This document shows, one piece after another, positions 17,431 to 39,105 of a stretch of DNA of 64,000 bases (its first letter is position 1; every line of letters starts with the position of its first letter). The notes under the pieces are model-generated. The model worked only from the letters and a program-made list of their open reading frames with translations, had not been told where the DNA came from and did not search any database. The translations under genes were made by a program, and so were the position numbers. Source of the DNA: Bradyrhizobium algeriense (GTDB lineage: Bacteria > Pseudomonadota > Alphaproteobacteria > Rhizobiales > Xanthobacteraceae); assembly GCF_036924595.1 (NCBI RefSeq), contig NZ_JAZHRV010000001.1, forward strand, positions 682,001 to 746,000, in the 5' to 3' direction.

Positions 17431-17570
17431 CGAGCCTGTTGCCGGGTAGGGCCAGGGGCGTTTTACAATGACGCGATGATCGAGTAGTGCCCCTGATTTG
17501 CCCGAACTGTCAAAATGTTTTCGCAGGGAAAGCATCCATGCCAGCGACCCCCTGTTACTTTGCATGGCGG
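17431..17570. repeat. Dispersed intergenic repeat family A, copy I (truncated)
   Basis: The block around TGCCCCTGATTTGCCCGA (from 17488) through CTTTGCATGG (ending near 17567) recurs at 25133-25331 and 32795-32992. This copy ends soon after CTTTGCATGG and lacks the tRNA-containing half of the other two. The surrounding 17363-17628 gap holds no convincing gene. Confidence 0.8.
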
Positions 17571-25132: not shown

Positions 25133-25499
25133 TCCGGGTTTTGCCTGCAATCGGCCGAACGGCCCGTTGGTCGGGCAGGGCCAGGGGCATTTTACAAATG
25201 GCGCAATGATCTAGTAGTGCCCCTGATTTGCCCGACGTGTCAAAATGTTTTCGCGGAGTTCGCTCAAAGCATCCATGCCGGCGGCCACCTCGCTACTTTG
25301 CATGGGGTTGTTTTCGATATTTTAGTTGGGAGTAGCCCGCCTTCGCCCGTAGCCTTCAGTTCGGCTTCGCTCAGCTACGCCGGACACCACGCTTCGCCCT
25401 CGAGGCCCCGCGAGGCTGCGCCGCGCGTAGCCCGAAGGGTGAAGCGTGGTGGGTCGGGCAGGACTCGAACCTGCAACCAGACCGTTATGAGCGGTCTGG
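25133..25499. repeat. Long direct repeat, copy II (family A plus tRNA 3' half)
   Basis: It matches 32795-33170. It begins with GGTTTTGCCTGCAATCG, contains the CCCCTGATTTGCCCGA block and the GTTGTTTTCGATATTTTAGT block, and ends in a tRNA-derived segment. Fills the 25047-25540 gap, where no protein gene is convincing. It marks the left edge of an island-like 7.7 kb region. Confidence 0.85.
25447..25499 (-). pseudogene. tRNA 3'-half fragment (CAU anticodon), left copy
   Basis: On the minus strand it holds the anticodon arm (CAGACCG, loop CTCATAA, CGGTCTG), the T arm (GCAGG-TTCGAGT-CCTGC), the acceptor 3' strand CCGACCC, discriminator A and CCA. The D arm and acceptor 5' strand are missing, so no functional tRNA can form. 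CAU could be Met or lysidine-modified Ile. 3' halves of this kind are typical scars of integrases that target tRNA genes. Confidence 0.85.
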
Positions 25500-25540
25500 A
25501 TAGCGACGAAACGATTTGCCTGACTGGCGGCCGGTCGCAA

Positions 25541-26674
25541 TCAAGACAACGAGATCGTGGCCAGGCGCGCCACGACGGCCTCAATCTCGTCGGCTGTGGT
25601 GTGCCTTCCCAGGCTGAAGCGGATCGCTCCCATTCCGATCCGTTCCGGCACGCGCATCGCCGCGAGAACGGGCGAGAGCTCAATCTGCCCCGAATGGCAC
25701 GCCGAACCCGTCGATGCCGCCACATTGCGCAACTGGCCCAATATGTCAGCGCCGATTCTACCGACGAATGACACGTTGAGAGTGTTCGGCAAACGATGCG
25801 TGGGATGGCCGTTGAGCGCGACGCCTTCGTTGAACCTCTCTTGCAGCGCCTTCCACAGGCGATCGCGCAGGGCCTCTACGTGCCTCATTGATGCAAGGTC
25901 AGCCGCCAGCGCGCAAGCCGTTCCAAGTCCAGTGGCAAGCAGGACGCTCTCGGTTCCGGCGCGTCGGCCCGATTCATGGCCGGCGCCATGGATAAGCGGC
26001 TCAAGCTCGAGGCCCGACCTGACATACAGCGCGCCGACGCCCTTTGGGGCGTAGAGCTTGTGACCGGCGACCGTAAGCATATCGACGCCGAGTTCGTCCA
26101 CCCTGGTCGGGATTTTTCCGACTGATTGCGCCGCATCGGTGTGAAAACGGATCCCGTGCTGCCGCGCGATCGCGCCGATTTCCGCGATCGGCTGTATGGT
26201 GCCAACTTCGTTGTTGGCGTGCATGATGCTGATCAGCACCGTCTGCGGAGTAATGGCGCGCCGCACGTCCTCTGGATCGATCAATCCTGTCCGATCCACC
26301 GGGAGATGAGTAACCGAGGCGCCGAACCCCTGGAGAAATCGGCAGGGAGCGAGAACAGCCGGATGCTCGATTGCTGAGGTGATGATGTGCGCCCCGTGGC
26401 GGTTGGGCGCGAAGAACGTGCCCTTGATTGCGAGGTTGTCTGCTTCGCTGCCGCCGCTGGTGAACACGATCTCCTCTGGTGCAGCGCCGATCAGCGCGGC
26501 GACCTGGCCGCGGGCGCGCTCCAGGGCGGCCTTGGCCGGCGTGCTCGCCCAATGCCCGCTCGATGGGTTGCCGAAGGCCTCCTCCAGCAATGGCCGCATG
26601 GCCGCCGCGACTGCAGGATCCACCGGCGTGCTTGCGTTGTAGTCGAGATAGATTGGCGGCATCGTCGCAGTCAC
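25541..26674 (-). CDS. Cysteine desulfurase (NifS/IscS-like)
   Basis: A 377-residue class V PLP aminotransferase-fold enzyme. It has YLDYNASTPVD at residues 9-19, SGGSEADNLAIKG (73-85), the PLP-lysine motif AGHKLYAPKG (Lys206) and the catalytic-loop Cys in STGSACHSG (Cys326). It removes sulfur from L-cysteine as an enzyme persulfide. No Fe-S scaffold genes (iscU, sufBCD, nifU) are adjacent; its partners are a GFA protein, an MFS transporter and an MBL protein in 4-base overlaps or tight spacing, so a role in sulfane-sulfur handling is more likely than housekeeping Fe-S assembly. It is the last gene of that operon. Confidence 0.9.
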   Translation of the reverse strand: MTATMPPIYLDYNASTPVDPAVAAAMRPLLEEAFGNPSSGHWASTPAKAALERARGQVAALIGAAPEEIVFTSGGSEADNLAIKGTFFAPNRHGAHIITSAIEHPAVLAPCRFLQGFGASVTHLPVDRTGLIDPEDVRRAITPQTVLISIMHANNEVGTIQPIAEIGAIARQHGIRFHTDAAQSVGKIPTRVDELGVDMLTVAGHKLYAPKGVGALYVRSGLELEPLIHGAGHESGRRAGTESVLLATGLGTACALAADLASMRHVEALRDRLWKALQERFNEGVALNGHPTHRLPNTLNVSFVGRIGADILGQLRNVAASTGSACHSGQIELSPVLAAMRVPERIGMGAIRFSLGRHTTADEIEAVVARLATISLS

Positions 26675-27057
26675 TTGCCTTGCTCGTCGTGATTAAGCCG
26701 CAGCCACGGCAGTTTCTCATCGGTGAAGAAGTGCTTGCTCGGTTGCAGCTCCGTCGCCCGGTCGAAGGCACCGACGTGATAGTGCGTTTCCGTCGGAAAA
26801 TGCACGGTAGCGCAGGTCAGCGTGGAGCCGCAGCGGGAACAGAAGCCCCGCGTGGTGCCCGGCGATGATTTGAACGTGGTTATGGTGCCCTCGGTCAGCG
26901 TGACAGCGTCGTTTTCGAACCCGACGAAGACGCTGACCGGCGCACCAGAATGGCGGCGGCAGCTATCGCAGTGACACCAGAAGACCCCTTTCGGCCGGCC
27001 TCGCGCCTCGAAACGCACCGCCCCGCAGAGGCAGCGTCCTGAAAAGGCCTCGGTCAT
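26671..27057 (-). CDS. GFA (CENP-V-like) family zinc protein
   Basis: A 128-residue protein with the GFA zinc-cysteine pattern: CLCGAVRF near residues 9-16, CHCDSCRRHSG near 29-39 and CSRCGSTL near 75-82. The family is named for glutathione-dependent formaldehyde-activating enzyme, but most members have no proven activity; thiol adduct chemistry is plausible. Overlaps by 4 bases with both the MFS gene upstream and the cysteine desulfurase gene downstream, so translation is coupled on both sides. Confidence 0.85.
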   Translation of the reverse strand: MTEAFSGRCLCGAVRFEARGRPKGVFWCHCDSCRRHSGAPVSVFVGFENDAVTLTEGTITTFKSSPGTTRGFCSRCGSTLTCATVHFPTETHYHVGAFDRATELQPSKHFFTDEKLPWLRLNHDEQGK

Positions 27058-28313
27058 TGTCGCGCTCCGGGTCTGGACTCCATGGCGATGAATACGATCG
27101 CCCCCGACAGGAAGGTGAGCGCGCCAATCGTTCCGATCGCCCAACCCATGCCGAAGAGGTCGGCGATCAGGCCGGCCGACAGCGCACCGATCGCGTAACC
27201 GAGATCGCGCCAGAAGCGGTAGACACTGAGCGATCGTGCGCGCCAGCTCGGATGCGAGGCGTCGGAGACGGCGGCGATCAGGCTGGGATACACCATGGCC
27301 GTGCCAAGCCCGAGCAGCAGGCTGCCGACAAGCCACCATTCGAAATGACTTGTTGCTGCAGTCAGAAACAAGCCTACGGCCTGCACCCACATGCCAGGCA
27401 CTATCAGTCCCTTGCGGCCCCAACGATCGGAAAGAGGGCCCGTAGCGATCTGCAGGATGCCCCAGGTCACCGGATAGACGGCCTTCAAGATACCGATCCG
27501 GTCGACATGGAGGCCGAACGAAGCGAAGAACAGGGGAAAGATTCCCCAGCTCATCCCATCATTAAGATTATTGACGAGCCCGGCCTGCGACGCGGCAAAA
27601 AGGTTGCGATCCCGGAACGAGGTGAGAAGGAATATCTCGCGGAAGCTGATCGGCACCGATTGCTGCGTATGGGCCGCCGTTTCCAGTCGGACGTGCTCCC
27701 GTGTATCCTGCACCAGTAGGATCGAGAGCGCCGTGCCAAGAATCGCATAGGCAACGCCTAGGTAGATCGGCGCCGGCCGCAGACCGTACTTCGAGGCAAG
27801 ATACCCGGTGAGGAAGGCGGTCACGCCCACCGCGAGATAGCCGGCGAACTCGTTGAGGCCGACGGCAAGTCCACGCGACTTCGGCCCGACGAGATCGATT
27901 TTCATGATCACCGTCATCGACCAGGCAAGACCCTGGTTGATGCCGAGAAGGGCGTTCGCTGCGATGATCCATCCCCAACTCGGCGCCCAGACGATCATGA
28001 ACGGCACCGGCAGGCCGACGAGCCAGCCGAGGACCAGAACCCGCTTGCGCCCCCAAGCATCGGCGAGCTGACCGGAGACCAAGTTGGCGCACGCCTTCAC
28101 GACTCCGAAGCTGACGATGAAGGAAACGACGAGCGTCGTCGAACTGATCCTGAACTCCTCGGAGCCGATCAGCGGCACGACTGTTCGTTCGATTCCGACC
28201 ATGCCGCCGACGAAGGCGTTGATCAGGACGAGCAAGGCGAACTGTGGCCAGTTCTCCCTGAGACCCAGGCGAATCGGGGAGGTTGGCTGTTGTGTCGTTG
28301 CCGCTTCGCTCAT
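27054..28313 (-). CDS. MFS transporter
   Basis: A 419-residue major facilitator protein with about twelve membrane segments. The inter-helix motif SGQLADAWGRKRVLVLG (near residues 63-79) is the conserved G-x-x-x-D-x-x-G-R loop, and a related one in the second half reads GPLSDRWGRKGLIVPG. Substrate unknown. Its position between the MBL protein and GFA/cysteine desulfurase genes, 3 bases after the MBL gene, suggests it moves a sulfur compound or a thiol adduct in or out. Confidence 0.9.
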   Translation of the reverse strand: MSEAATTQQPTSPIRLGLRENWPQFALLVLINAFVGGMVGIERTVVPLIGSEEFRISSTTLVVSFIVSFGVVKACANLVSGQLADAWGRKRVLVLGWLVGLPVPFMIVWAPSWGWIIAANALLGINQGLAWSMTVIMKIDLVGPKSRGLAVGLNEFAGYLAVGVTAFLTGYLASKYGLRPAPIYLGVAYAILGTALSILLVQDTREHVRLETAAHTQQSVPISFREIFLLTSFRDRNLFAASQAGLVNNLNDGMSWGIFPLFFASFGLHVDRIGILKAVYPVTWGILQIATGPLSDRWGRKGLIVPGMWVQAVGLFLTAATSHFEWWLVGSLLLGLGTAMVYPSLIAAVSDASHPSWRARSLSVYRFWRDLGYAIGALSAGLIADLFGMGWAIGTIGALTFLSGAIVFIAMESRPGARQ

Positions 28314-28316
28314 GGA

Positions 28317-29057
28317 TCAGGCTGCGGCGGCGGCCGCGCCCGAATTGGCCGCCCTGATCTTCGCGGCTTCCGGTGGCGCCGGCGGAATCTCGGCGACCAT
28401 GAACCGAACAAACTCGGCTTCGTCCTCGATCGTGAACGCCTGATTGTGCCGTTTCTCGAAGCCGATCGCCGACGATGGTTTGCCGCTTAGTCGCCGGCCG
28501 CAGACCGAGCCCGCATAGGCGCCCGGCAGCACCTCGACGTAGTCAGGCAGCTCCTTCAGCCTTCGCACGCTCTTGAACAATTGCCTCGCGCCTTCCTCCG
28601 CGCTCGCGGCGAGTTCGGTGCGGCCGAGATCGCCGACCATGAGCGTGTGTCCGGTGAAGACGAACCACGGCTCGTCCGCGCGCGTTCGATCCGTCACAAG
28701 GATGCAGATGTGCTCGGGCGTGTGTCCGGGCGTGTGCAGCACGGTGGCAGAGACGTTGCCGAGGGGAAGAACGTCGCCGTCGCGCACGCCCTTGTGCGGA
28801 AACGATACGCCGGCCTCCGCCGAGAGCACGTACTCCGCTCCCGCTGCGGCCGCGAGTGCCCGGCCGACCGATAGGTGGTCGGCATGGACATGCGTGTCGA
28901 TGACGAAATGTATCCGCATGCCGGCATTGTCGGCGGCCTGCAGGTAGGGCTGAATATCGCCGACTGGGTCAACGACCGCCCCGGCAGCCTGGCCGCCGCA
29001 GCCGAAGAGGTAGGAAATACCGACCGGATCGCTATGCAAGAACTGGCGGAGAATCAT
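28317..29057 (-). CDS. MBL-fold protein related to persulfide dioxygenases, altered metal ligands
   Basis: A 246-residue metallo-beta-lactamase fold protein started at ATG 29057 (GGGAG site upstream); the longer reading from 29093 runs into the promoter. It keeps THVHADH (H56, H58, D60, H61) and TPGHTPEH (H112). Two expected ligands differ: the FTGD motif is FTGH (H137), and the PxHG histidine region reads LPGAYAGS (Ala180). Sequence flow (GRTEL, GFEKRHN) is like ETHE1/Blh persulfide dioxygenases and their relatives. First gene of the minus-strand operon, divergent from an ArsR-rhodanese regulator. Function likely in sulfane-sulfur oxidation, but metal content may be unusual. Confidence 0.85.
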   Translation of the reverse strand: MILRQFLHSDPVGISYLFGCGGQAAGAVVDPVGDIQPYLQAADNAGMRIHFVIDTHVHADHLSVGRALAAAAGAEYVLSAEAGVSFPHKGVRDGDVLPLGNVSATVLHTPGHTPEHICILVTDRTRADEPWFVFTGHTLMVGDLGRTELAASAEEGARQLFKSVRRLKELPDYVEVLPGAYAGSVCGRRLSGKPSSAIGFEKRHNQAFTIEDEAEFVRFMVAEIPPAPPEAAKIRAANSGAAAAAA

Positions 29058-29090
29058 GGACTTGCACTCCCTCGTGAGAAACGCTAGATA

Positions 29091-29112
29091 CATTCAATCG
29101 ATCTGCTGAATG
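29091..29112. promoter_or_regulatory. Probable ArsR-type operator
   Basis: CATTCA, ten bases, TGAATG: an inverted repeat in the 73-base divergent region between the MBL operon and the ArsR-rhodanese gene. The flanks are AT-rich (GATA and ATATAT), unlike the surrounding GC-rich DNA. One site here could control both directions. Confidence 0.55.
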
Positions 29113-29130
29113 ATATATGGAAGGAGCGCC

Positions 29131-29799
29131 GTGTCAAGCTCGGGACCGAAACAGGCGATTTATGAGAATCTTGCCCAGGTGGCGCAGGCGCTCGGCCACG
29201 CTCACCGGCTTGAACTTTTGGAACATCTTGCGCAGGGAATACGCACCGTCGAGGAACTGTCGGCTCGCGCACATCTATCGTTCGCCAATACGTCGCGGCA
29301 CTTACAGATCCTGAGGCGCGCACGGCTTGTTGAGACCGAGCGTCGCGGCAAACACATTCTCTATCGTCTGGCCGGCGATGCCGAAGTGATCACGCTGATC
29401 AAAGCGCTAGGGCGCGTCGGTGAACGGAACGTTGCCGAGATCGGGCGCTTGGTCACCGATTATTTTCACGCGCGTGACGCGCTTGAGCCTGTATCGCGTG
29501 ATGACCTGGTCGCGCGATTGCGGGACGATCTGGTGACGGTCCTCGACGTGCGGCCCGAAGATGAGTTCGCCCTGGGCCATCTCCCGGGCGCGCTCAACAT
29601 TCCTCTGGCCGAACTGGAAAGGCGTTTGGGCGAACTGTCAAAATGCCGTGAGGTGATTGCTTATTGTCGCGGGCCCTATTGCGTTCTTTCGTTCGAAGCC
29701 GTGTCAGCCCTGAGGGCGCGCGGCTATCGCGTTCGCCGTCTTGAGGACGGTTACCCCGAATGGAAAGCCGCCGGCCTGCCGGTCGAATCCGTGGCTTGA
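29131..29799 (+). CDS. ArsR-family repressor fused to a rhodanese domain
   Basis: A 222-residue fusion, started at GTG 29131 directly behind GGAAGGAG; ATG 29110 overlaps the operator. Residues about 10-95 are an ArsR winged helix (RTVEELSARAHLSFANTSRH, LVETERRGKHILYRLAG). Residues about 125-220 are a rhodanese domain with DVRPEDEFALGHLPGA and active loop C-R-G-P-Y-C (179-184). The DNA-binding domain has no cysteine, so the paired-Cys switch of SqrR/BigR is absent; the only Cys are 172, 179 and 184, all in the rhodanese part, so persulfide sensing through that domain is the natural inference. It is divergent from the MBL/MFS/GFA/desulfurase operon. Confidence 0.9.
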   Translation: MSSSGPKQAIYENLAQVAQALGHAHRLELLEHLAQGIRTVEELSARAHLSFANTSRHLQILRRARLVETERRGKHILYRLAGDAEVITLIKALGRVGERNVAEIGRLVTDYFHARDALEPVSRDDLVARLRDDLVTVLDVRPEDEFALGHLPGALNIPLAELERRLGELSKCREVIAYCRGPYCVLSFEAVSALRARGYRVRRLEDGYPEWKAAGLPVESVA

Positions 29800-29820
29800 G
29801 ACAGGTCGATCAGGTGCGTC

Positions 29821-30645
29821 ATGGATGATAAGCCTCATCGCGCGGAATCCGCGTGGCCGATCGTCGGTGTCAAGGATCACAAAGCGCCCTCGGTATTCCG
29901 GCCTGAATCCCTGTTGAGGGAGGCGCGCCGGCAGAGGCAGTTGCCACTCCTCAACGTGCCCGAAATCTGCGTGCTCGATCCGGACGGTGACGTTGTCCGC
30001 CACCTCAAGCGGACCGGCGCTGGCCGCATCCATGAAGGTTGGGCCTGCTATCACACCGAGCTTCTTGCCTTCGATCTCGACGGCATCGGCGAGATCGGCA
30101 TCGTCGGTTGCGCCGTTGGTGCGCCGTTCGCCGTGCTCGTGGCAGAGCAGCTCTTCGCGTCCGGCTGCCGACTTCTCGTCAGCGTCACGTCCGCCGGACA
30201 AATCACCGCAATCGGGCCGACGCCGTACTTCGTCCTGATTGACCGAGCGCTGCGCGATGAGGGGACAAGTTATCACTACCAGCCGGGCTCGACTTTCGCC
30301 GAAGCACCCGACTCGTCGCTTCTGGACCGCGTCGAGCGGGCGTGCCGATCGCTGCCCGAGAAACTGCATCGCGGCTCGACCTGGACGACGGACGCTCCGT
30401 ATCGCGAGACGGAAGCGGCCATCGCGCGGGCGCTCGATCTGGCAACGCTTGCAGTCGAGATGGAAGCGGCCGCTCTCTATGCCTTCAGCGCGACGAGCGG
30501 CCATTCCATCGTCTGTTTCGCGCACGTCACAAATTCGATGGCGCAAACGGAGGTCGATTTTGAGAAGGGTGAGGCTGACGGCGCCAAGGCAACCCTTGCT
30601 GTCGTCGCAGCAGCCGCGCGCGGCTGGCGACGCTATGACCCATGA
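29821..30645 (+). CDS. Nucleoside phosphorylase family protein
   Basis: A 274-residue protein of the PNP/UDP phosphorylase superfamily. It shows the GIVGCAVGAPFAVLVAEQL segment (near 94-112), the central substrate motif VEMEAAALYAFSA (near 216-228) and a preceding TWTTDAPYRET segment, matching the uridine-phosphorylase-like subgroup. It cleaves nucleosides with phosphate; the base is not readable. It follows the ArsR-rhodanese gene by 21 bases in the same direction. A link to thio-nucleoside salvage (for example methylthioadenosine) would fit the sulfur neighbours but is speculation. Confidence 0.83.
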   Translation: MDDKPHRAESAWPIVGVKDHKAPSVFRPESLLREARRQRQLPLLNVPEICVLDPDGDVVRHLKRTGAGRIHEGWACYHTELLAFDLDGIGEIGIVGCAVGAPFAVLVAEQLFASGCRLLVSVTSAGQITAIGPTPYFVLIDRALRDEGTSYHYQPGSTFAEAPDSSLLDRVERACRSLPEKLHRGSTWTTDAPYRETEAAIARALDLATLAVEMEAAALYAFSATSGHSIVCFAHVTNSMAQTEVDFEKGEADGAKATLAVVAAAARGWRRYDP

Positions 30646-30690
30646 CCAGTTATGGCCGTAGCTGAAAGTTTCGCCCACATCTCTATACGT

Positions 30691-30737
30691 TTGACTTAAT
30701 CATCAGCGCGTGCTAATCATTAGCTATGACTAATGAT
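30691..30737 (+). promoter_or_regulatory. Promoter and operator of the ArsR/AHA1 operon
   Basis: TTGACT (30691-30696), a 17-base spacer and TAATCA (30714-30719). A perfect inverted repeat with arms ATCATTAG (30716-30723) and CTAATGAT (30730-30737), six bases apart, covers the -10 box and the expected start point, which fits autorepression by the ArsR protein encoded next. Confidence 0.7.
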
Positions 30738-30756
30738 ACGCTGAGAACCCTGTGTC

Positions 30757-31128
30757 ATGACCGAATTGAAAGGTCCCGTTGGCACTCCCGGCTTCGGACG
30801 TCGGCCAGCCATGGCTAAAGACAACGCGCAACTGGCCGCTCTGGGCGATTCGACTCGCAGACGAATATTCGAACTTGTGGGCGCGCGGCCTCGCACTGTC
30901 GTTGAACTCACCCGAGAACTGACAGTCTCCCAGTCAGCCGTCTCCCAGCATCTGAAGGTGCTGCGCGAATCTCGTTTGGTTCGTGCCGAGCCAAAGGGGG
31001 CCAGCAACATTTATCACATCGATCCTGCGGGACTCGGCCAGATGCGCGTCTGGCTTGACCGGTTCTGGAGCAGCACACTGGCAGCTTACAAAGTGGCCGT
31101 CGAAAAATCAGTGGAGGACCAGCAATGA
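30757..31128 (+). CDS. ArsR-family transcriptional repressor
   Basis: A 123-residue winged-helix repressor. The recognition region is clear: LGDSTRRRIFELVGARPRTV (about 29-48), then ELTVSQSAVSQHLKVLRESR (about 56-75) and a wing GASNIYHID. It has no cysteine at all, so no metal-thiolate or persulfide site. ATG 30811 would give a 105-residue form starting at MAKDN and is a fair alternative. The 4-base overlap with an AHA1-type gene is the common ArsR/SRPBCC pair, in which the repressor controls its neighbour. A palindromic operator lies over its promoter. Confidence 0.88.
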   Translation: MTELKGPVGTPGFGRRPAMAKDNAQLAALGDSTRRRIFELVGARPRTVVELTRELTVSQSAVSQHLKVLRESRLVRAEPKGASNIYHIDPAGLGQMRVWLDRFWSSTLAAYKVAVEKSVEDQQ

Positions 31129-31610
31129 CTAAACGTGTATCGGCAGCGCCCATCAAACAATCTGTCGTGGTCGAGGCGCCTATCGATCGCGCGTTCAAGG
31201 TCTTCACTGAAGACTTCGGCAGCTTCAAGCCACGCGAGCACAATCTGCTCTCCGTCCCGATCGCAGAGACCGTGTTCGAACCGCGGGTCGGGGGTCACGT
31301 TTATGATCGAGGTGTCGATGGAAGCGAATGCCGCTGGGCGCGTGTGTTGGCTTTTGAGCCGCCGAATCGCGTCCTTCTAAGCTGGGACATCAGCCCGCGC
31401 TGGCAAATCGAAACTGATCCCGACAAGACCAGTGAATGGGAGGTTCGGTTCATTGCCGAATCGCCAAGCCGGACTCGGTTGGAGCTTGAGCACCGTCACC
31501 TTGAACGCCATGGCGAGGGTTGGGAAAGCGTCCGGGATGGAGTCGAGGGCGATCAGGGCTGGCCGCTTTATCTGAAACGGTTCGCCGAACGGATTGTCGG
31601 CGAGGCATGA
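31125..31610 (+). CDS. SRPBCC / AHA1-domain protein
   Basis: A 161-residue START-like (SRPBCC, activator of Hsp90 ATPase homologue 1 type) protein. It begins SVVVEAPIDRAFKVFTEDF, has the GGHVYDRGVDGSECRWARVLAFEPPNRVLLSWDI stretch split over strands in the middle, and ends in a long C-terminal helix (GWPLYLKRFAERI). Such proteins bind small hydrophobic ligands in a cavity; ligand unknown. It is coupled to the ArsR repressor gene by the ATGA overlap. Confidence 0.87.
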   Translation: MTKRVSAAPIKQSVVVEAPIDRAFKVFTEDFGSFKPREHNLLSVPIAETVFEPRVGGHVYDRGVDGSECRWARVLAFEPPNRVLLSWDISPRWQIETDPDKTSEWEVRFIAESPSRTRLELEHRHLERHGEGWESVRDGVEGDQGWPLYLKRFAERIVGEA

Positions 31611-31654
31611 TGCTCGCGTCCCTTGCGACATGATCGTAATCGGCGGAGGTCTGT

Positions 31655-32068
31655 ATGGCAGCCTACTCGCTTAGCATTGTCGGCGTGCTTTTCCTTTGCC
31701 TCCTGTTAATTGGACTGGCGGTCTTTTCAGGAGCGTCCAAAGGCAGGTCCGGGGCACTCTCCGGACCTGTCCTTCCAGCCGATGAAGACAATCTGCTGTA
31801 CCGGATCGATCGCGTTCACATGAACGCGGTGGAGGCGCTGACTCCTTTTGTCGTCCCGTCTGTTCTGGCTATGTTGATGGGGGTAAGACCCGCTACGCTT
31901 GCAACGCTCGTATGGATCTATATCGCAATTCGTCTGACCCACGTTGCGGTCTATTTGCGCGGAGGCAACGCCGCCAAAGGCGGCAGCATCAGAACCGTTC
32001 TCTATGTTTCAGGTGCGCTCGTAACTATCATTCTCATTGCCGTAACCACCGTGGCAGCCATCCATTAG
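31655..32068 (+). CDS. MAPEG-family membrane protein
   Basis: A 137-residue protein with four hydrophobic segments (near 5-25, 60-77, 80-97, 113-134) and the MAPEG-type core RIDRVHMNAVEALTPFV, where the basic residue and Asn/Glu contact glutathione in the family. MAPEG proteins are membrane glutathione transferases or peroxidases. A GGCGGAGG ribosome site precedes the ATG. It follows the AHA1 gene by 44 bases and probably shares its transcript. Confidence 0.85.
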   Translation: MAAYSLSIVGVLFLCLLLIGLAVFSGASKGRSGALSGPVLPADEDNLLYRIDRVHMNAVEALTPFVVPSVLAMLMGVRPATLATLVWIYIAIRLTHVAVYLRGGNAAKGGSIRTVLYVSGALVTIILIAVTTVAAIH

Positions 32069-32213
32069 GGTATCAACACCGGGCCGCCTGACGACGGTGA
32101 TCATTTCGGCTGTTGGCCCATCGCGTCATTTCGCTGGGCTGCGGAACTTGGTCGCTATCCGGGCCGAGCGGACTTTGGCAAGCCGTCCGCCCGGCAGATC
32201 TATAGTTTCACGC

Positions 32214-32726
32214 CTAGATTGCTCGAATGCTGCGAGTGCGGACAGCTGGCTTGGTAGTCTGGGCGGTGCCGACGACGCGCTTGATCTTCTCCCTCTTGCG
32301 AGTGATCGCCCCGGACGCTTCCTTCATGTAATCGGGATGGTGATGACCCTAGGTGTCGATTAGAACCTTCACCGACATGCCGAGATAACCAGCCGCTTCC
32401 CATGGGTCAGTGCCCAGCTGCATGAGCCAGGTCGCTGCCGTATGGCGTAGCGTGTGCGGCGTGACGTTGCCGTCCGAGAGGTCGAGCTTCGCCACCTCCA
32501 CGGCGCGAGCGAAGCCGTTCTTGACCGACTTCACGCCCGTGCCCTGCCACTCGACGAAGTGGTTGGCGATGATCTTCTTGTCGCACCAGCGACGCATGTG
32601 GACCAGCAGTCGGTCCGGCAGCGGCACGGTGGGCTGACGCTTGTTCGTAGCGCGCCGGCCGATCGCCAGACGGTGATAGAGGCCGCTCAAGAGGCACGTG
32701 ACAGCTTGCCCGCAACCAAGCATCAA
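32214..32726 (-). pseudogene. Tyrosine recombinase (integrase) remnant
   Basis: The reading frame carries the catalytic HTLRHTAATWLM box (H-x-x-R) and GYLGMSVKVLIDT. A TAG at 32349-32351 stands where the family has the catalytic Tyr (followed in frame by GHHHPDYMKEASG), and the frame then stays open to a TAG at 32214. The N-terminal catalytic Arg region is missing. So this is a 5'-truncated phage-type integrase with a nonsense change in the active-site tyrosine. It lies beside the right tRNA-fragment repeat, as expected for the enzyme that formed the island. Confidence 0.85.
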
Positions 32727-32794: not shown

Positions 32795-33170
32795 GGACAG
32801 GTTTTGCCTGCAATCGCGCCGAAGAGCCTGCTGCTGGGTGGGGCCATGGGCGTTTAACGAATTGCGCGACGATGCATTAGTGCCGCTGATTTGCCCGACG
32901 TGTCAAAATGTTTTCGCAGGATTCGCTCTAGGCATCCATGCCCGCGACCACCTGCTACTTTGCATGGGGTTGTTTTCGATATTTTAGTTGGGAGCGCAGC
33001 GCGGTCCGCCCTTCGCCGCTCCAGTCCGTCTTCGCTTTCGCTTTGCTCAAGCTACGCCGGACACCACGCTTCACCCTTCGGCCCCGCGTGGCTGCGCCAC
33101 GCGTAGCCCGAAGGGCGAAGCGTGGTGGGCCCGGCAGGATTCGAACCTGCAACCAGACCGTTATGAGCGG
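32795..33170. repeat. Long direct repeat, copy III (family A plus tRNA 3' half)
   Basis: Same order and orientation as 25133-25499: GGTTTTGCCTGCAATCG, CTGATTTGCCCGACGTGTC, GTTGTTTTCGATATTTTAGT, a GC-rich hairpin stretch (ACCACGCTTC ... GAAGCGTGGT), then the tRNA fragment. Right edge of the island-like region. Confidence 0.85.
33123..33170 (-). pseudogene. tRNA 3'-half fragment (CAU anticodon), right copy
   Basis: Minus-strand CCG-CTCATAA-CGG anticodon remnant, T arm GCAGG-TTCGAAT-CCTGC, acceptor 3' strand CGGGCCC, A, CCA. The 5' half is absent. It differs from the left copy in the T loop and acceptor bases (CGGGCCC against CCGACCC), so one copy has drifted or the two came from different tRNA genes. 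Confidence 0.85.
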
Positions 33171-33189
33171 CAGAATATCGATCAGCTTC

Positions 33190-33276
33190 GTTGATTTTGC
33201 CGCGTTTTTGTTCGATTTCGATCGCGTTCGTTGCGTTCTGATGAGGTTGTTTCTGGTGCGAAACTGGTGCGGCGTC
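33190..33276 (+). repeat. Repeat family B, copy 1 (next to tRNA fragment)
   Basis: The segment from GTTGATTTTGCCGCG to AACTGGTGCGGCGTC recurs at 39019-39105 with about three quarters identity. It starts 19 bases after the tRNA fragment. Between here and 33540 no gene is convincing. Confidence 0.7.
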
Positions 33277-38952: not shown

Positions 38953-39018
38953 CCCTGCACAACGATGAACGTTCCATCATACCGCTTCACAGATGTGGAG
39001 ATGGCAACCGACAGTTTT

Positions 39019-39105
39019 GTTAATTTTGCTGTGGTTTTGTTTGATTTTGTTCGCGTTCGTTATGTCTTGAAGACATCGTTTCCGGTGCGGAACTGGTGCG
39101 GCGTC
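39019..39105 (+). repeat. Repeat family B, copy 2
   Basis: GTTAATTTTGCTGTG ... AACTGGTGCGGCGTC, the counterpart of 33190-33276 in the same orientation. It falls in the 184-base gap between the MocR and IclR genes and marks the right edge of the pobA-LysE-MocR module. Confidence 0.7.

Follow-up and report, generated by a model that had tools for sequence, protein, structure and literature searches.

The question raised by a compact gene cluster in Bradyrhizobium algeriense is whether its regulator, an ArsR-type winged helix-turn-helix (wHTH) domain followed by a rhodanese domain, controls a system for reactive sulfur, and which of the neighboring genes belong to that system. The cluster lies in a 64,000-nucleotide (nt) window of contig NZ_JAZHRV010000001.1; the window is the whole stretch of DNA that was analyzed, and all coordinates are window positions unless a genome position is named. 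A first-pass annotation described six genes here as one island-borne module that senses and processes sulfane sulfur. Genome comparison shows that the conserved unit consists of three genes: the ArsR-rhodanese regulator (29131..29799, plus strand), an MBL-fold protein (28317..29057, minus strand), and an MFS transporter (27054..28313, minus strand), with an operator between the divergent genes. Our reading, which we hold to be somewhat likelier right than wrong, is that the module is a mobile, self-regulated operon for the sensing, detoxification, and export of reactive sulfur (persulfides and polysulfides), analogous to the cst and bigR operons.

A conserved three-gene unit and its operator

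All six reading frames named in the first-pass annotation are present with the families assigned to them, and the four minus-strand genes are spaced as it claimed, with two 4-base overlaps and one 3-base gap. Relatives of the regulator are encoded in 284 stretches, of which the best 80 were kept, so the sample of loci leans to close relatives; the B. algeriense genome itself is not among the 80. Gene presence was called at identity thresholds of 30–50%, depending on the gene, while DsrE, SHOCT, and methyltransferase genes were named by Pfam. Among the 74 loci with at least 3 kb of upstream sequence, a divergent MBL gene occurs in 58, the MFS gene in 64, and both in 58; MFS is thus found without MBL in 6/74 loci and MBL without MFS in 0/74. 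One of the loci with MFS but no full MBL gene (L048) retains a C-terminal MBL remnant, a sign of loss. The regulator is kept in loci without the MBL/MFS pair, and in some of these its neighbor is a DsrE gene, a phosphorylase gene, or another MFS gene.

The other genes are far less constant. Across the 64 loci that extend 5.5 kb or more upstream and 1.5 kb or more downstream, the phosphorylase is present in 27, the cysteine desulfurase in 22, DsrE in 21, SHOCT in 21, a methyltransferase in 12, and GFA in 3. DsrE or the desulfurase accompanies the regulator in 33 of these loci, and both do so in 10. The neighborhood comparison on which the first-pass annotation had staked its six-gene unit recovers the full set in 3 of the 80 loci, all from Bradyrhizobium, which rules out the six genes as a single conserved unit. 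GFA is likewise ruled out as a core part: at a threshold of at least 45% identity it occurs in 4/80 loci, all of them lacking DsrE and SHOCT, and weaker matches (36–37%) near L047–L049 fall below that threshold. In other Bradyrhizobium, SHOCT and DsrE genes take the position held here by GFA (26671..27057, minus strand). Because GFA is a local alternative to these genes, the thiol-adduct chemistry of its namesake, which the annotation had built into the module, is not needed.

An operator-like palindrome, CATTCA-N10-TGAATG (29091..29112), lies between the divergent genes, about 40 bases ahead of the regulator start. In the window, the −10-like hexamer of an 11/12 promoter match for the MBL gene overlaps this palindrome. 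Among 81 upstream regions (the 80 loci plus the window), 52 contain an exact match to ATTCA-N10-TGAAT; the best match has no more than 1 mismatch in 73 regions and no more than 2 in 80. A match with no more than 1 mismatch was reached in 0.72% of 4050 dinucleotide shuffles. The locus therefore combines an ArsR domain with a palindrome at a divergent promoter, as BigR- and SqrR-type repressors do, and the regulator would repress through this operator. A GTG at 29131 is the preferred regulator start, since several relatives have a stop codon within the match if it begins at 29110.

The longer pattern CATTCAA-N9-TGAATG, at up to 1 mismatch, occurs at three places in the B. algeriense genome. The module and genome position 5042319 match exactly (the latter at G000:C1:5042319-5042340, L184), and the third place has a mismatch. 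The reversed control gives 1 match, and a wider regulon is not claimed.

Within the regulator, Cys179 and Cys184 of a CRGPYC loop in the rhodanese domain are kept in 83/83 relatives. No other column holds more than 5 Cys among these relatives, and conserved Cys are absent from the ArsR domain. SqrR and BigR sense through Cys41/Cys107 and Cys42/Cys108, respectively (PMC9774590, PMC5823870). A conserved Cys pair of this kind within the wHTH domain is absent from the 83 relatives, so the sulfur-sensing site, if there is one, must differ from that of SqrR and BigR. The predicted structure of the regulator (pTM 0.47) packs its domains weakly and is of low confidence at the CRGPYC loop, and it was used for domain order only. 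A relative of the regulator is publicly named metalloregulator ArsR/SmtB. A fused ArsR-rhodanese protein would part sulfur sensing, in the rhodanese domain, from DNA binding, in the wHTH domain, which would make the sensing chemistry easy to test.

The altered metal site of the MBL protein

By sequence and by fold, the MBL protein is nearest to known persulfide dioxygenases (PDOs) of the ETHE1 and CstB types. Its closest solved chains are 3tp9 (E 1.6e-52) and 3r2u (E 6.7e-47), the latter of which we take to be CstB, followed by ETHE1-type enzymes. In a Foldseek search, the AlphaFold model (mean pLDDT 87.9) retrieves solely ETHE1/PDO/CstB-type or uncharacterized MBL chains at ranks 1–22, with a best TMq of 0.91, and glyoxalase II chains appear from rank 23 with a TMq of 0.70. 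The HxHxDH motif and the second His ligand of the ETHE1/PDO families are also shared. The persulfide-dioxygenase fold named in the first-pass annotation holds up, but the Asp iron ligand that belongs to it is missing.

The position of this ligand, presumably ETHE1 Asp154, is occupied by His137, where all five solved chains with alignment shown carry Asp. Two further positions differ as well, in that Ala180 and Glu148 stand where the 42 distinct aligned relatives with the Asp ligand have His and Asp. Over 111 distinct sequences, positions 137/180/148 read His/Ala/Glu (H/A/E) in 69 and Asp/His/Asp (D/H/D) in 42, with no mixed combination. His137 is found in 63/63 MBL proteins of the neighborhood set. 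All three positions are invariant in a 27-row family alignment that reaches down to 59% identity, and His56, His58, Asp60, His61, and His112 are invariant in 27/27 rows. Described PDOs have a 2-His-1-Asp facial triad (PMC6060420, PMC12856154), whereas each of the 69 distinct clade sequences has His137 in place of the Asp. Their second shell, in which a His bonds to the Asp ligand beside an Arg-Asp network, is altered here to Ala180 and Glu148, with Arg146 kept beside both changes. To judge from the alignment, the MBL protein is probably a rewired enzyme with a triple-His site.

These residues bear on two other readings of the protein. It could be a zinc enzyme, similar to glyoxalase II, that hydrolyzes S-acyl or S-adduct thiols, in which case the module, with the GFA and MAPEG proteins taking part, would clear conjugates of electrophiles and thiols and the MFS would export the product. 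Many public records name the protein hydroxyacylglutathione hydrolase, in agreement with such a role, and others glyoxylase-like or MBL-fold hydrolase; GFA and MAPEG genes lie within the same cassette, and three His could hold zinc. However, the dinuclear zinc site of glyoxalase II uses a bridging Asp and a motif-5 His, replaced here by His137 and Ala180, and the loss of the motif-5 His argues against a site of this type. The late appearance of glyoxalase II chains in the fold search and the absence of GFA from 76/80 loci also count against a hydrolase, which we regard as distinctly unlikely. It is more improbable still that the protein has no catalytic role and serves in binding or sulfur transfer with Cys186 as its working residue. 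The Asp ligand and two network residues did change together, and Cys186, which aligns with a Cys of chain 3r2u (CstB Cys201, by our assumption), is kept in 26/27 rows. However, His56, His58, Asp60, His61, and His112 would not need to be invariant if the metal site were dead.

MBL scans covered 289 genomes at the class level, 398 at the phylum level, and 117 at the genus level, in addition to the B. algeriense genome, and 68 loci were fetched and tallied with a regulator threshold of E 1e-15. Twenty combine His with a full-length regulator, 44 have Asp and no full-length regulator, 3 have Asp and a distant regulator (42–44% identity), and in 1 the residue could not be aligned. In L121, a further locus with Asp, a full-length but weak regulator match reaches 27% identity. 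Within the B. algeriense genome, three of the other four MBL matches carry Asp, and the fourth is not alignable at this position.

In a tree of 56 rows, in which long branches were flagged and the root serves for drawing only, the H/A/E set is separated from the other rows by a branch with a support of 100/99 and adjoins the D/H/D rows L130, L131, and L133. Its members are mostly Alphaproteobacteria, with a few records labeled Acidobacteriota or Mycobacterium. The three changes may go back to a single history, given that all H/A/E sequences fall in one clade, and their strength as evidence lies in their fixation. L131–L133 have the regulator, MBL, and MFS genes together, with the Asp ligand in the MBL protein and CRGP[YFL]C in the regulator; in L132 the regulator and MBL genes are on the same strand. 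Because these loci already carry all three genes, the grouping seems to be older than the switch to His. These loci are useful unswitched comparison sets. No exact operator was found in L130–L133.

A reactive-sulfur reading and the case against it

Two known operons offer the closest parallels. The cst operon of Staphylococcus aureus contains tauE, cstA, cstB, and sqr under CstR, and the present module resembles it in placing under a putative persulfide sensor an MBL enzyme of the CstB type together with a sulfurtransferase and a presumed exporter (PMC5480029). It differs in its regulator, an ArsR-rhodanese protein where CstR is CsoR-like, and in its MBL protein, which stands alone with no fused rhodanese and no Asp ligand. 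The transporter is an MFS protein here and TauE there, and sqr is absent from the genes of the cassette. The bigR operon encodes an ArsR-type repressor, a DUF442-ETHE1 protein, and a TauE-like sulfite transporter (PMC5823870). Both systems join an ArsR-type repressor to an MBL enzyme and a transporter, with an operator at the −10 region, but Blh of the bigR operon is an ETHE1-like domain fused to DUF442, and BigR senses by the two Cys of a single wHTH domain, whereas the Cys pair of the present regulator lies in the fused rhodanese loop (PMC5823870). A module for sensing and processing sulfane sulfur, as proposed in the first-pass annotation, remains the best reading in view of the MBL fold, the rhodanese Cys pair, and the DsrE gene in 21/64 loci, although the six genes do not form one unit.

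We infer that persulfide is both signal and substrate, that three His bind the metal, and that the MFS is the exporter. Specifically, the ArsR-rhodanese protein would occupy CATTCA-N10-TGAATG, an operator recognized by its conservation, over the divergent promoters. Sulfane sulfur may be loaded onto Cys179 of the rhodanese loop, with Cys184 closing a di- or trisulfide that would cause release from DNA. The MBL protein would then act on a low-molecular-weight persulfide at a predicted mononuclear metal site of His56, His112, and His137, surrounded by the co-changed second shell, and the MFS may export the product or a persulfide adduct. Optional parts, namely the cysteine desulfurase with DsrE, or GFA in this window, could tune sulfur flux or handle thiol adducts. 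The block would move as a cassette between repeats of a tRNA-Met 3′ end, for which repeats, an empty site, and reordering are observed.

Several findings weigh against this reading, beginning with the chemistry of the metal site. Replacement of D130 by Ala, Glu, or His in the Acidithiobacillus caldus PDO leaves 0.5–2% activity, and D130H has low iron (PMC6060420). H171, R139, and D141 form an essential network in which H171 bonds to D130, and the H171A and D141A variants are inactive or nearly so; the authors describe the iron ligands as almost irreplaceable and the triple-His form as a mimic of cysteine dioxygenase (PMC6060420). The residues D130, H171, and D141 are equated here with His137, Ala180, and Glu148 by motif position, the A. 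caldus sequence not being part of the alignment. With the Asp ligand gone and the A. caldus mutants nearly inactive, persulfide dioxygenase activity cannot be assumed. As read from the alignment, the natural clade combines the damaging change from Asp to His with substitutions at the positions that supported the original ligand. The second shell would have been remodeled to support a 3-His site, or else the protein would catalyze a different reaction, and the clade is accordingly a direct test of what a 3-His MBL site needs from its second shell, or a pointer to another reaction.

Cysteine and cysteamine dioxygenases adopt a cupin fold, in contrast to the MBL fold here. The likeness to these enzymes is a three-His metal site, in the present case predicted from alignment only (3-His sites: PMC4019311). 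A bolder proposal, possible but with the balance tilted against it, is that the H/A/E clade represents a natural triple-His thiol or persulfide oxygenase of MBL fold that has converged on a cysteine-dioxygenase-type site with a compensating second shell, under the control of repressors that would sense sulfane sulfur through the rhodanese loop. A literature search that covered few subscription journals found no ArsR-rhodanese fusion regulator and no natural triple-His persulfide dioxygenase, which is a weak absence.

Other difficulties concern the operon as a whole. The promoter scan gave 2 sites where 1.9 are expected by chance, so the promoter match is weak on its own. A search for solved-structure relatives of the MFS at E 1e-6 found none. 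The MBL gene is missing from 16/74 loci, of which 6 retain the MFS, and the transporter may therefore be more important than the enzyme. A metal ATPase, CDF, RND, or chromate-transporter gene is present in 18/80 loci (L023–L102; flanks up to 9 kb, each metal-gene cluster named from one representative), a raw count with no background rate for the surroundings of mobile genes, and such neighbors suggest a stress other than sulfur.

These neighbors lead to an explanation in terms of thiophilic metal, metalloid, or chromate stress, in which the Cys of the CRGPYC loop would bind a soft metal or oxidant, the MFS would export the toxicant or a thiol complex, and the MBL protein and desulfurase would repair thiol or sulfur pools. 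The regulator passes the cut-off of the HTH_metalloreg model. The count of metal-related loci rises to 23/80 if MerR, YnfA, and DUF411 are included, the L095 regulator lies beside a different MFS gene with DUF411 and RND genes, and the retention of the MFS in MBL-less loci also fits. However, the conserved Cys pair sits in the rhodanese loop rather than in the ArsR domain, the presence of MBL and DsrE as partners speaks for sulfur, and the raw count carries the limit given above. We therefore consider metal stress unlikely and retain the reactive-sulfur reading.

The cassette and its accessory genes

Direct repeats bracket the genes of the module. The left repeat spans 25173..25494, and its last 48 nt (25447–25494) match the tRNA-Met(CAT) 3′ end on the minus strand; the right repeat spans 32836..33171, with 33123–33171 matching 49 nt of the same end. 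These terminal pieces match at 96–98%, and one intact tRNA-Met gene with a matching end lies elsewhere in the B. algeriense genome (overlapping loci L106 and L112). The two copies are about 7.66 kb apart, and a related genome (G103, L188) has an empty site in which the left flank, a single repeat copy, and the right flank follow one another. The insert shares with tRNA-anchored integrative elements the flanking direct repeats of a tRNA 3′ end and the empty site in a relative. The description island-borne in the first-pass annotation is thus confirmed in a specific form, as a 7.7-kb repeat-bounded insertion. An intact integrase of its own was not found between the repeats; what remains there is the C-terminal 125 aa of a tyrosine recombinase (32349..32726, minus strand).

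Additional repeats, a partial copy at 17444–17567 and another pair at 33183/39012 (33183–33276 and 39012–39105), give the region the appearance of a row of repeat-bounded cassettes. Related repeats split the stretch from 17.4 to 39.1 kb into three segments, two of them about 7.7 kb long and the third about 5.8 kb. A second relative, G019 (L186), carries the module at 92% identity over 7.6 kb, and there parts of the adjoining segment (33.1–39.0 kb) precede the module rather than follow it. In these two related genomes (L186 and L188), repeat-bounded segments are absent or reordered, like cassettes at one tRNA-Met-derived site.

The cysteine desulfurase (25541..26674, minus strand) is NifS/IscS-like and has both a GHK motif (Lys206) and a GSAC motif (Cys326), which we take to supply the pyridoxal-phosphate Lys and the catalytic Cys. 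Its family is clear, but its score is below every NCBIfam cut-off shown, so a subtype is not claimed. A nucleoside phosphorylase superfamily protein (29821..30645, plus strand), a frequent accessory, follows the regulator, and the cassette extends beyond it. Upstream of the recombinase remnant are a second ArsR regulator without a rhodanese domain (30811..31128, plus strand, with a possible start at 30757), its partner protein (31125..31610, plus strand), and a MAPEG-family protein (31655..32068, plus strand). The partner, a putative SRPBCC protein, has no Pfam or NCBIfam match.

In three loci (L023, L039, and L193), the block of second ArsR, partner, and MAPEG genes precedes the block from desulfurase to phosphorylase, whereas in the window (25503–32125) it comes after. 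A repeat piece of 41–44 nt lies about 40 nt from this block in L023 and L193. Circular permutation of the block through the repeats is not supported, as the breakpoints fall near 30657/30690, away from the repeats.

The tRNA-Met 3′ piece occurs at 12 places in the B. algeriense genome, 7 of which cluster at 5.60–5.71 Mb with the intact tRNA-Met gene, and this region may represent a similar but larger island. Within the genus, the regulator is present in 18 of the 117 Bradyrhizobium genomes examined, that of B. algeriense included.

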